From positions 62,001 to 126,000 of the forward strand of contig JAKQNP010000032.1 of NCBI GenBank assembly GCA_029565675.1: a DNA stretch of 64,000 bases, given 5' to 3'. A model generated the notes under the pieces. That model saw only the letters and a program-made list of their open reading frames with translations, had not been told where the DNA came from and searched no databases. A program made the position numbers and the translations under genes. The stretch comes from a bacterium (GTDB lineage Bacteria; Zhuqueibacterota; Zhuqueibacteria; Residuimicrobiales; Oceaniaggregativiventaceae). How positions within the stretch are numbered: position 1 is the first letter of the stretch; every line of letters begins with the position of its first letter. Positions 30,346 through 33,633 of this stretch are shown in pieces.

Positions 30346-30360
30346 GTGCGGAGAATGGCA

Positions 30361-31305
30361 ATGAAACGAATCGCTTTGCTCTTCCTTTTGCTGGCCGTGC
30401 TTTGGCTCGGCTGCGTTCAAACCACTGATCAGGTGCAAATCCTCGTTTCGCCCAAAGGACTGGTGCATTCATTCTGGTTGACCGTCAAGGCAGGCGCCGA
30501 ACAGGCCGGAAAAGAAGAAGGCGCCCGGGTGATCTGGAAAGGGCCGGCCCTGGAAACGGACATCGCCACCCAGATCAGCATTCTCGAGGATTATATCAAC
30601 AAAAAAGTCGACGCCATCGTGCTGGCCGCCTGCGACGCCAATGCCCTGATTCCGACGATCGAAAAAGCCGACGCCGCCGGCATTCCGGTCATCATCATCG
30701 ACTCGGGTGTCAACTCGGATGTGCCCAAATCGCTGGTGGCCACCGATAACATCCTGGCGGCACAGAAAGGCGCGGATGCCCTGGCCGGGTTGATCGGCGA
30801 AAAAGGCAAGGTGGCGCTGATTCCCTTTGTGCCTGGAGCGGGAACATCGGTGATGCGCGAAGAGGGATTCAAGCAGGGACTGGCAAAATATCCGAAGATC
30901 GAACTCGTGGCCGTGCAGTATTCACAAAGCGAGGTTGAACGCGCCATGTCGGTTACCGAAAACATCCTCACCGCCCACCAGGACCTGAGCGGCATCTTTG
31001 CCGCCAATGAAGCGGGAACCATCGGCTGCGCCCAGGCCGTCAAGAGCCGCGGCATGGCCGGCAAAATCAAGCTGGTCGGATTCGATGCGTCGCCGAATGA
31101 AGTGCAGGCGCTGCAAGAAGGGGTCGTGGATGCACTGATCGTGCAGAATCCCTATCAGATGGGCTACCAGGGTGTTAAAGCCGCTCTTGCTGTGCTCAAC
31201 GGCCAGAAGGTCGAACCTGTGATCGACACCGGTGTCACCGTCGTCACCCGCGACAACCTCGAGACGCCCGCAATCCAGCAGCTGCTGGCCAGCATGAATG
31301 AGTAA
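30361..31305 (+). CDS. Sugar ABC transporter periplasmic-binding lipoprotein (RbsB-like)
   Basis: 314 aa from ATG 30361 (MKRIALLFLLLAVLWLGC), with GGAG 8 bases before; ATG 30355 and GTG 30346 are in frame but closer to the ribosome site. Lipobox LWLGC, Cys 18. Type-1 periplasmic-binding fold (Peripla_BP_4): NKKVDAIVLAACDANAL, GIPVIIIDSGVNSD, IFAANEAGTIGCAQAV, KLVGFDASPNEVQAL. The ligand is probably a monosaccharide; it is not predictable here. It lies 15 bases after the permease and shares its promoter. Confidence 0.9.
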   Translation: MKRIALLFLLLAVLWLGCVQTTDQVQILVSPKGLVHSFWLTVKAGAEQAGKEEGARVIWKGPALETDIATQISILEDYINKKVDAIVLAACDANALIPTIEKADAAGIPVIIIDSGVNSDVPKSLVATDNILAAQKGADALAGLIGEKGKVALIPFVPGAGTSVMREEGFKQGLAKYPKIELVAVQYSQSEVERAMSVTENILTAHQDLSGIFAANEAGTIGCAQAVKSRGMAGKIKLVGFDASPNEVQALQEGVVDALIVQNPYQMGYQGVKAALAVLNGQKVEPVIDTGVTVVTRDNLETPAIQQLLASMNE

Positions 31306-31325
31306 AACGAGACAGGGCGGAACCT

Positions 31326-31342
31326 CGCTCCCTTTTGGAGCG
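31326..31342. repeat. Hairpin after the sugar-binding protein gene
   Basis: CGCTCC-CTTTT-GGAGCG. It is followed by TTAAAAAAA rather than a T-run, so it is not a standard intrinsic terminator on the plus strand. It may stabilise the 3' end of the permease/binding-protein message. Confidence 0.45.
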
Positions 31343-31485
31343 TTAAAAAAACGTTTCAGAACTGTTGCGTTTAAAGAAAAAAAAGGGTATTTTGATCAGG
31401 CTGAATCATTCATAAAAAAGGTAGAATCCCTACTACCCATTCAGTCGGCATCATTTGTTTCAAGTCAGGCTTTAGAACGTGTTTT

Positions 31486-31651
31486 ACCACAAAGGGTACA
31501 AAGAAAAAATTACTGTAAAAGAAAGAAAATAAAGAAGCGACAAACCAGAGTGTCGTATTTCTTTGCAGGCAATGAAAAAGTGAGTGGTGCGAAAGCAAAA
31601 ATTTAATCCGATCCGTTTTTACTCCACCTCTTTCTTTGCGTCCTTCGTGGT
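31486..31651. repeat. Imperfect inverted repeat, MITE- or REP-like
   Basis: The left arm (31486-31507) begins ACCACAAAGGGTACAAAG; the right arm (31631-31651) is the approximate reverse complement, ending CGTCCTTCGTGGT. About 17 of 21 arm positions can pair, enclosing about 125 bases without a gene. Sequences like 'ACCACGAAGGACGCAAAG' recur as dispersed intergenic repeats in unrelated bacterial genomes; that is recollection, not a search. Confidence 0.5.
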
Positions 31652-31674
31652 TTATGAATCATCAGACTTGATTG

Positions 31675-31996
31675 GTTTCGACAAACCTTTTGCTGCATCA
31701 GCAGCAAAATAAAAAATCCCGGCTCTGGGACGAATAGGGTTTCGACAAACCTTTTGCTGCATCAGCAGCAAAATCGAAAATCCCGGCTCTGGGACAAATA
31801 GGGTTTCGACAAACCTTTTGCTGTATCAGCAGCAAAATCGAAAATCCCGGCTCTGGGACGAATAGGGTTTCGACAAACCTTTTGCTGTATCAGCAGCAAA
31901 ATCAAAAATCCCGGCTCTGGGACGAATAGGGTTTCGACAAACCTTTGCTGCATCAGCAGCAAAATAAAAAAAACCTCCACCTTGGGGACGAACATG
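31675..31996 (+). repeat. Tandem 64-bp repeats resembling the tmRNA 5' end
   Basis: Five units begin with GTTTCGACAAACCTTT at 31675, 31739, 31803, 31867 and 31931. The first four are exactly 64 bp with a few substitutions; the fifth is 66 bp and merges into the tmRNA gene, whose own GTTTCGAC starts at 31997. Each junction reads TGGGACGAATAGGGTTTCGAC, matching the mature tmRNA 5' end (from 31984) at 18 of 21 positions. Each unit also encodes three possible hairpins: GGTTT-CGAC-AAACC, TTTTGCTG-CATCAG-CAGCAAAA and TCCC-GGCTCT-GGGA. Reverse frames are open through the array but are repetitive and not credible genes. Confidence 0.9.
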
Positions 31997-32352
31997 GTTT
32001 CGACGGGTCACGTGGTGGTGGTGGATGCATGCCGAGCGACCCCGGTTGACTCGTAAAAACACCCGGGAATAAACATAATTGCAGACAACTACAATTATGC
32101 CCTGGCTGCCTAACCAACGTTAGGCCGGCCACGTTCCCTGCGGGTTGTGTCTGCTGGACCTGCAGCGGAGCGCCGATCACAGCGGACTGGCCTTCGGCGT
32201 CGCCTTGCCACCGAAGGCGAGACTTTAGAGGCTGGACTCTTTACACCCTGTCTTTCGGGACGAAAGAGTCGAGATACAAAGAAAGACTAAGCATGTAGTA
32301 TTCGCCATGGCCGGTTTCTCGGACGTGGGTTCGACTCCCACCGTCTCCACCA
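31984..32352 (+). ncRNA. ssrA: Transfer-messenger RNA (tmRNA, one-piece)
   Basis: 369 nt. The 5' end GGGGACGAACATGGTTTCGAC and 3' end GTGGGTTCGACTCCCACCGTCTCCACCA form the tRNA-like domain: the GGGGAC and GTCTCC ends pair (one G-U) to make the acceptor stem, GTGGG-TTCGACT-CCCAC is the T arm, and CCA is encoded. The tag frame starts at GCA 32081 and reads ADNYNYALAA before TAA at 32111-32113, with the expected ALAA terminus. tmRNA rescues stalled ribosomes with SmpB and marks the product for proteolysis; no smpB gene is in this window. A terminator follows directly. Boundaries follow from acceptor pairing. Confidence 0.97.
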
Positions 32353-32361
32353 ATTAAAAAG

Positions 32362-32407
32362 AAACCCGTTACTTCCGGGAAACGAGCCCGGAGTGACGGG
32401 TTTTTTT
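32362..32407 (+). terminator. Intrinsic terminator of tmRNA
   Basis: AAACCCGT(TA)CTTCCGGG-AAACGAG-CCCGGAGTGACGGGTTT followed by a run of T to 32407. The long stem has a small internal mismatch. It begins 10 bases after the encoded CCA. Confidence 0.9.
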
Positions 32408-32453: not shown

Positions 32454-32607
32454 CCGACAATCAGCCGGTTTGAAGACACGCCATCAAGAACGAATTTTTA
32501 TCACATCGCAAAGTCTCTGGTAGAAGCGTATTTCGATTCTCCGGTCGGGGTAGTTATGCGCAAAACACCATGGCCAAAATCATGGCAACGCAATTATTGG
32601 GAACAGA

Positions 32608-33633
32608 TCATCCGCGAAGAATCTCTGCAAAGCCCGGCTGCTTCAGCGCCTCGTCGATAAACGCCAGCATGTTTTCCAGGGGCACGTCGCCTTCCACCGC
32701 ATGCGCCGGGGAGAGGATATATCCACCTTCGCGGCCCAGCTCGATCAGCCGGCGGGTCTCGGCCTGAACCTCCGCCGGCGTGGCATAGGGCAGGGTCCGC
32801 TGCGTCGACAATCCGCCAAAAAACGCCAGCCGGCCGCGAAAGCGGCCGATCATTGCGGCAACGTCCATGACCTCGGGTTGAAACGGATTAAAACAATTGA
32901 CGCCGATGTCGATAAGGTCGTCGAACAGTTCCTGCACGTCGCCGCAGGAATGGATGAACACGGCTTTGCCCGCCTGGTGAACAGCGGCATAGGTGCGCTT
33001 GACTTCGGGATAGATAAACTCGTGCCAGATCCGCGGGCCCATCTGCAGCCCGTGCTGCTGGCCCCAGTCGTCACCGAAATAGACCGCGTCGATATCCCAT
33101 TCCAGTGCCCTGTTGACCTGGGCGATGTTGTAATCGGCGATGGCTCGCAACAGGTCGCGGACAAAATCCGGATGGTCGTAAAAGTCGGTCATCAGGTTTT
33201 CCATGCCGCGCAGGGTCCAGGCCCGTTCATAGAGCGAAAAGCCGATCGAAAAGACCCGGTAACGATCCGGCTGCGCCGCAATCTTGCCTGACATGTCGAC
33301 AAAAAAGCGTGCATCCAGCGGATCGGGAAAAGCATATCCACCCAGTATCGGCTCAACCAGCAGCGGGCGTTCGACGTTGCCGATGTCCTTGTCAATGCTG
33401 CGGTCCCAGACGACGCCAAATGCATCCTGGAAACGGTCATCGCCGAGATCGGTAAAAAAATCGATTTCGTTTCCCAGCGACAAAAGATGGTTGTGCAACT
33501 GCAGCTCAGGATCATCGCCACCGAAATGATCGACCAGCTTTTGCCGGGCTTCCAGCGTAAAAGAAAACGACCAAGGCACATAGGGCGGTCTGGCGCCCGC
33601 TACAACTGCCGCAATCACCTCGCGTTTGGTCAT
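32608..33633 (-). CDS. Uroporphyrinogen decarboxylase (URO-D) superfamily protein
   Basis: 341 aa from ATG 33633 (MTKREVIAAVVAGARPPYVP), with AGGAGAG upstream; the frame from 33669 is less likely. Family features: YFGDDWGQQHGLQMGPRIWHEF (about 182-203, split by one helix), AVHQAGKAVFIHSCGDVQ (about 221-238) with the His/Cys of the cobalamin-methyltransferase branch, and GGYILSPAHAVEGDVPLENM near the end. It lacks the N-terminal RQAGR of true HemE, so it is not the haem enzyme. Relatives include corrinoid methyltransferases and many proteins of unknown function, often near sugar-transport genes. Confidence 0.82.
   Translation of the reverse strand: MTKREVIAAVVAGARPPYVPWSFSFTLEARQKLVDHFGGDDPELQLHNHLLSLGNEIDFFTDLGDDRFQDAFGVVWDRSIDKDIGNVERPLLVEPILGGYAFPDPLDARFFVDMSGKIAAQPDRYRVFSIGFSLYERAWTLRGMENLMTDFYDHPDFVRDLLRAIADYNIAQVNRALEWDIDAVYFGDDWGQQHGLQMGPRIWHEFIYPEVKRTYAAVHQAGKAVFIHSCGDVQELFDDLIDIGVNCFNPFQPEVMDVAAMIGRFRGRLAFFGGLSTQRTLPYATPAEVQAETRRLIELGREGGYILSPAHAVEGDVPLENMLAFIDEALKQPGFAEILRG

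Follow-up and report, generated by a model that had tools for sequence, protein, structure and literature searches.

A tandem array carrying partial copies of the tmRNA 5' end upstream of ssrA, and its counterparts at tRNA-Pro and selC

Introduction

The ribosome-rescue RNA known as tmRNA is encoded by ssrA. In the genome of the uncultured bacterium considered here, ssrA is preceded by a tandem array whose junctions repeat the 5' end of the mature RNA, which raises the question of how such an array arose and whether it acts on the transcript it precedes. An earlier note on this DNA offered two answers: slippage that duplicated the 5' end together with its leader, or an array that works in cis, either as decoy substrates for RNase P or as tandem hairpins that tune tmRNA maturation. 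Below, the window denotes the whole 64-kb stretch of DNA that was analysed. It comes from a 64-contig draft genome of 4.43 Mb that is 95% complete, and the array lies within a contig of 356 kb.

Arrays of the same kind stand at the ends of at least two tRNA genes, a pattern that favours a recurrent process of repeat formation at stable-RNA genes over a control device peculiar to tmRNA. With a probability of roughly 60%, the ssrA array is a minisatellite confined to its locus, derived from the tandem-duplicated tmRNA 5' end and the adjacent hairpin leader, and is one product of a process that recurs in this genome.

The ssrA gene and its surroundings

The ssrA gene occupies positions 31984..32352 of the plus strand (ARAGORN; tag ADNYNYALAA*, CCA encoded). 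It is intact by the Rfam tmRNA model, with a full-length covariance-model match of 204.9 bits over model positions 1-374 and a tag reading frame, and nothing else in the window reaches the gathering score of an Rfam family. A probable intrinsic terminator follows on the same strand at 32363..32406, where an inverted repeat is succeeded by a T run; the terminator scan marked 32384-32403, and the full extent was read from the sequence. Upstream, as is conserved among relatives, lies a plus-strand gene for a sugar ABC transporter substrate-binding protein (30346..31305; Peripla_BP_4, E 2e-67). The gap between this gene and ssrA is 678 nt here and about 75-140 nt in three relatives, namely G002 and G003 from the family, and L050. 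One other relative, G008, carries two full-length tmRNA genes (C161 and C105).

In most relatives, a sigma-70 type promoter is found 14-60 nt ahead of the mature tmRNA end. The best promoter-like site between the transporter gene and ssrA in this genome, TTGCGT-17-TATTTT at 31365..31393 (plus strand), sits at the position of the relatives' ssrA promoter, and its score of 11.3 is not significant against shuffled maxima with a mean of 10.1 and a 95% point of 13.2. If this candidate were the promoter, the pre-tmRNA would begin with a leader of about 590 nt. A promoter within each unit was rejected, as sites in the array score at most 6.9 compared with a median of 14.8 in relatives.

The leader ends in CACCTT directly before GGGG, placing C(-4), U(-1) and G(+1) around position 31984. 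With these three nucleotides, the genuine cleavage site fits the consensus described for RNase P at pre-tmRNA (PMC10731613). That an ssrA leader can matter in principle is indicated by Streptococcus pyogenes, in which a SNP in the leader was reported to change read-through of the ssrA terminator (PMC9951164).

No gene for SmpB turned up in this bin, which is 95% complete; 26 of the 30 genomes searched have one, including G001 of the same genus. The missing smpB probably reflects a gap in the bin, as the intact ssrA argues. Alternatively, trans-translation may have been lost or be in decay, which would relax constraint on ssrA.

Anatomy of the array

Tandem Repeats Finder (TRF) reports an array at 31674-31971 with a period of 64 bp, 4.7 copies and 96% matches. 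Units begin at 31674, 31738, 31802, 31866 and 31930, and the next equivalent position, 31996, is within ssrA. The plus-strand stretch 31674-31995 is thus divided into four units of 64 bp (31674..31737, 31738..31801, 31802..31865 and 31866..31929) and one of 66 bp (31930..31995), the gene-adjoining leader, whose final 12 nt are the true tmRNA 5' end. The five-unit array described earlier is therefore real, including the exact length of its first four units, and it runs in phase into ssrA as had been claimed, although only to within 2 nt since the last spacing is 66 rather than 64.

Each of the first four units passes into the next through a partial copy of the tmRNA 5' end. Scored against the 21 nt of the mature end (31984-32004), the plus-strand junctions at 31726..31746, 31854..31874 and 31918..31938 match at 18/21 positions and the one at 31790..31810 at 17/21, so that the figure of 18 originally given for every junction applies to three of the four. 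On both strands of the 64-kb window, the only sites with at least 16/21 matches are these junctions and ssrA itself. The stretch preceding unit 1 (31662..31682, plus strand) matches at 13/21 and is possibly a decayed copy of the 5' end; apart from the shared GGTTTCGAC, the resemblance could also be due to chance. Compared with L009, a relative whose tmRNA 5' end reads GGGGACGAATATGG..., the junction copies agree at 19/21 positions; with the resident ssrA they agree at 18/21. Being one base nearer to L009 is what would be expected if they were copied from an older form of ssrA, before its latest changes.

Within unit 1, the hairpin GGTTT-CGAC-AAACC is followed by a 9-bp hairpin, TTTTGCTGC-ATCA-GCAGCAAAA, an A-run and a third hairpin, TCCCG-GCTC-TGGGA. 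The units are 61-63/64 identical to one another and differ at several sites, and all five keep their hairpins; the sole stem change among units 1-4, C to T, leaves a G-U pair. Directly before the 5' end, units 1-4 have a derived sequence in common that sets them apart from unit 5, which is consistent with homogenisation. As the earlier note had stated, nothing of the tRNA-like 3' half is present in the array: a lax Rfam scan of 31250-31996 gave hits at chance level only and no tmRNA. Nor did Rfam lend any support to the idea that another, decayed tmRNA lies between the array and the transporter gene.

Predicted folding of the array and its leader

As single-stranded DNA or as transcript, the repeated sequence is predicted to fold locally. 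The array region at ssrA folds far better than its shuffles (z -7.0). In folds of the leader joined to tmRNA, the copied GGGA and GGTTT are paired in local hairpins, the third hairpin of the unit sequestering GGGA, and their predicted pairing with the 3' strand of tmRNA is about 0. The acceptor stem has a predicted probability of 0.97 in mature tmRNA, which falls to 0.43 once the array is included and to 0.15 when transcription is taken from the putative promoter, bearing in mind that long folds are uncertain. From these predictions it is possible that a structured, hairpin-rich leader slows or otherwise affects tmRNA maturation. The folding that had been suggested as a check thus yielded the local hairpins and a weakened acceptor stem; the copies themselves are predicted to stay unpaired with the tmRNA 3' strand.

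Similar arrays at other genes

Tandem Repeats Finder was run on 2.25 Mb, about half of the genome, and 30 RNA genes were checked for nearby copies of their own ends. Two further clear cases emerged. The tRNA-Pro gene (L205:15149-15225, minus strand) has an upstream array of 56-60 bp that repeats its own 5' end, with copies at -60, -119 and -175 matching 17/18, 14/18 and 15/18; decayed copies reach about -505, and decay grows with distance from the gene. The selC gene for tRNA-Sec (L247:1173-1268, minus strand; Rfam RF01852) has a downstream array of 63 bp that repeats its own 3' end, in which three copies, each 28/33, are spaced 63 bp apart. The units differ among ssrA, tRNA-Pro and selC, and none has a hit elsewhere in the 2.25 Mb.

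What all three arrays have in common is the design of the unit, which joins a hairpin from the gene end to an abutting extragenic hairpin. At ssrA, these are GGTTT-CGAC-AAACC and the 9-bp hairpin that follows it. At tRNA-Pro, GGGCG-TAG-CGCCC is followed after 2 nt by AAAAAAATC-TGT-GATTTTTTT, and at selC, AAAAGCC-GGA-GGCTTTT is followed by the T-arm hairpin GGGAG..TTCCC. When folded as single-stranded DNA, the three units score from -2.5 to -5.4 as z against shuffles.

Counting non-coding arrays with a period of 40 or more within 100 nt of a gene, long-period arrays adjoin 4/30 RNA genes as against 7/1429 protein-gene proxies (p = 4e-5, in a comparison made after the cases had been seen). The fourth RNA-gene array is upstream of tRNA-Met (L202) and does not contain the end of that gene. 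It consists of dispersed palindromic repeats (ACCGCCTTTAGGCGGG / CCCGGCTAAAGCCGG) arrayed upstream of the tRNA-Met promoter (L202:1299-1833; C35). An array of 71 bp x 5.7 with a G+C-rich inverted repeat lies upstream of a thioredoxin-like gene, trxA (L143:12422-12829; C42). It is locus-specific in the 2.25 Mb checked, no gene end was seen in it, and the stretch tested folds no better than shuffles. Among other features of the genome are CRISPR-like repeat arrays (L195:36-1982 and L278:5541-6124) and a tadA-like deaminase reading frame that, from its sequence, appears to lie between tRNA-Arg and tRNA-Ser in one cluster (L160:7780-8265, minus strand).

A survey of 388 genomes turned up two others with a doubled tRNA-Pro 5' end, both from other phyla. 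Each is a single upstream duplication (G232 C20:23678-23750 and G224 C66:28265-28330), and in G232 the hairpin GGATAAA..TTTATCC lies between the two copies. Together they suggest that such events may be scattered through bacteria.

Distribution of the ssrA array

A genome-wide search found no further copy of the ssrA array unit, and its hairpin is limited to the five units plus one match with two mismatches elsewhere in the genome. A unit scattered over many unrelated loci, the outcome that would have spoken against the original proposal, was accordingly not seen. A dispersed or mobile unit is ruled out genome-wide for ssrA and within the 2.25 Mb for selC and tRNA-Pro. Origin from a phage or plasmid was likewise rejected, with the region unmatched among phages and plasmids and the unit unmatched in viral contigs; a looser triple pattern was matched by two viral contigs.

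The search of related genomes that had been proposed found the array in none of 99 relatives, where only G054 gave a weak match of 63 nt, and the regions upstream of the relatives' ssrA genes lack it too. For G001, the sole genome from the same genus, the bin has no ssrA and the contig ends inside the neighbouring transporter gene. A doubled tmRNA 5' end was found nowhere else in the phylum, and a doubled 5' end of the class GGGACG....TGGTTTCGAC in none of about 85,000 species genomes. A looser doubled-end pattern matched 8/388 genomes, including the present one. In the remaining seven it is just the short word TTCGAC that matches, and both of the loci inspected among them (L126 and L131) are tmRNA genes with a single upstream TTCGAC. 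A literature search returned nothing relevant on tandem repeats at tmRNA.

Comparison with known repeat systems

To our knowledge, tandem repeats carrying a tRNA end have hitherto been a curiosity of E. coli tyrT, and the 178-bp repeats of tyrT/tyrV (rttR / rtT RNA, tpr) are the nearest known case. Besides an RNA, the tyrT units also give an ORF. The RNA product of the tyrT repeats is rtT RNA (PMC4986893). In MG1655, exact copies of the terminal 19 nt of tRNA-Tyr were located at +160, +338 and +516 after tyrV and at +157 after tyrT, in the tyrT-tyrV spacer. The arrays described here resemble tyrT/tyrV in that head-to-tail repeats directly adjoin a tRNA or tmRNA gene and each unit copies the terminal nucleotides of that gene (17-18/21 at ssrA, up to 17/18 at tRNA-Pro and 28/33 at selC). 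While the E. coli repeats copy the 3' end and lie downstream, those at ssrA and tRNA-Pro lie upstream and carry the 5' end; selC alone agrees in side and end and is the nearest match. The E. coli units are also 178 bp long with an RNA and an ORF, whereas those in this genome are 56-66 bp and contain no RNA family or ORF, and the double hairpin sets the latter apart.

An attL/attR remnant is a single copy that marks the distal end of an element kilobases in size. Such remnants resemble the junction copies in reproducing a short part of a tRNA or tmRNA gene, and prokaryotic tRNA fragments commonly stem from those left by integrase islands (PMC9897764). The arrays differ in that multiple copies, mostly of the 5' end, follow one another head to tail every 56-66 bp and no element separates them; at ssrA, copies 64 bp apart with nothing in between led us to reject an integrase attachment site.

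REP/REPIN repeats, which are associated with RAYT transposases, are dispersed and share their sequence. They too have units of two hairpins, and dispersed units of this sort exist in the present genome (L194, L197 and L202). The arrays at RNA genes, in contrast, are restricted to their own loci and made from the end of the adjoining gene. Identity with REP/REPIN was rejected because the ssrA unit occurs only at its own locus and the three units have no second home in the sequence checked. A closer likeness is with generic slippage minisatellites, which share the head-to-tail units of about 60 bp, the 4-10 copies and, at tRNA-Pro, greatest similarity near the gene with decay outwards. Even so, generic intergenic minisatellites differ from these arrays, which are concentrated at stable-RNA gene ends and have the double-hairpin design in common.

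Origin of the array and its possible effects

Local tandem duplication, the reading favoured here, would take short double-hairpin segments at stable-RNA gene ends and duplicate them head to tail. Hairpins would stall or misalign replication so that the segment from the gene end to the hairpin is copied twice, this first duplication occurring where the hairpins abut, through slippage during replication or through template switching. Slippage or unequal exchange would then expand the units and homogenise them. A pre-tmRNA with a long, hairpin-rich leader, cut off by RNase P at 31984, would be the likely consequence, and any effect on RNA maturation is taken as incidental. The earlier suggestion that slippage duplicated the 5' end and leader is supported. 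The equivalent arrays at tRNA-Pro and selC, one at a 5' end and the other at a 3' end, leave tuning specific to tmRNA unsupported.

Other origins and roles fit less of the evidence. An assembly artefact, in which a repeat stuttered in a metagenome-assembled genome, might be suspected in a draft of 64 contigs; it is very unlikely given that the units differ at several sites, that the array is internal to its contig and that other contigs have independent arrays whose sequences differ from it. A single-strand HUH/Y1 REP-associated transposase could in principle have acted on the hairpins to create or spread the double-hairpin units. A Y1_Tnp-like C-terminal remnant is situated directly downstream of ssrA (window ~32583-32627); its homologue in G001 (L044:2-196) has a weak match to Y1_Tnp, and dispersed repeats make up further two-hairpin arrays of this genome (L197 and L202). 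The remnant is itself too short for a Pfam match, however, the units of the three RNA-gene arrays are neither dispersed nor related in sequence, and no intact transposase or target-site tetranucleotide could be tied to them, which makes this origin quite improbable. As for a role in processing, the junction copies were once pictured as decoy substrates of RNase P, or they and the true 5' end might compete for the 3' half of tmRNA. They do reproduce the 5' strand of the acceptor stem and the D-loop region, yet RNase P reads the acceptor/T-stem helix, the T loop, the 3' RCCA and G+1 in pre-tmRNA (PMC10731613). The units hold the 5' strand only, lack a T arm and RCCA, and have T in place of G+1 at every junction. 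Decoy action is unlikely on these grounds and on the near-zero pairing with the 3' strand, the copies being locked in hairpins of their own; as selC copies the opposite end, the idea can hardly be credited.

A cis-acting pre-tmRNA leader is a somewhat more serious contender. According to it, about 15 hairpins would slow or gate maturation by RNase P or protect the transcript, and would be kept by selection. This model draws on the strong folding of the region, the predicted fall in acceptor-stem probability, the hairpins preserved in five units with a G-U pair where one stem changed, and the lack of a normal ssrA promoter near the gene. Against it, relatives with the same gene order manage without the array, the comparable array at selC is on the 3' side, and thermodynamic folding is unreliable for an RNA of 950 nt. 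The four variable sites are also too few to show selection on the hairpins, which was dropped as an argument. On balance such a leader is unlikely as the reason for the array.

Local tandem duplication does leave one feature to account for. The presence of one architecture at three RNA genes exceeds what generic slippage would lead one to expect, which may mean that an enzyme or some selective benefit plays a part. A bolder version, possible but doubtful, envisages an active and perhaps enzyme-driven process of this lineage that captures a hairpin from the end of an RNA gene, couples it with another hairpin and amplifies the two together in head-to-tail order. Such a process would act on either end of several RNA genes, and the resulting hairpin-array leaders and trailers would alter RNA maturation or termination. 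The recurrence of one double-hairpin design at three RNA genes, on the 5' side of two and the 3' side of the third, suggests that a general mutational route operates at genes for stable RNAs, and array formation would explain why this tmRNA gene sits far from the usual position of its promoter.
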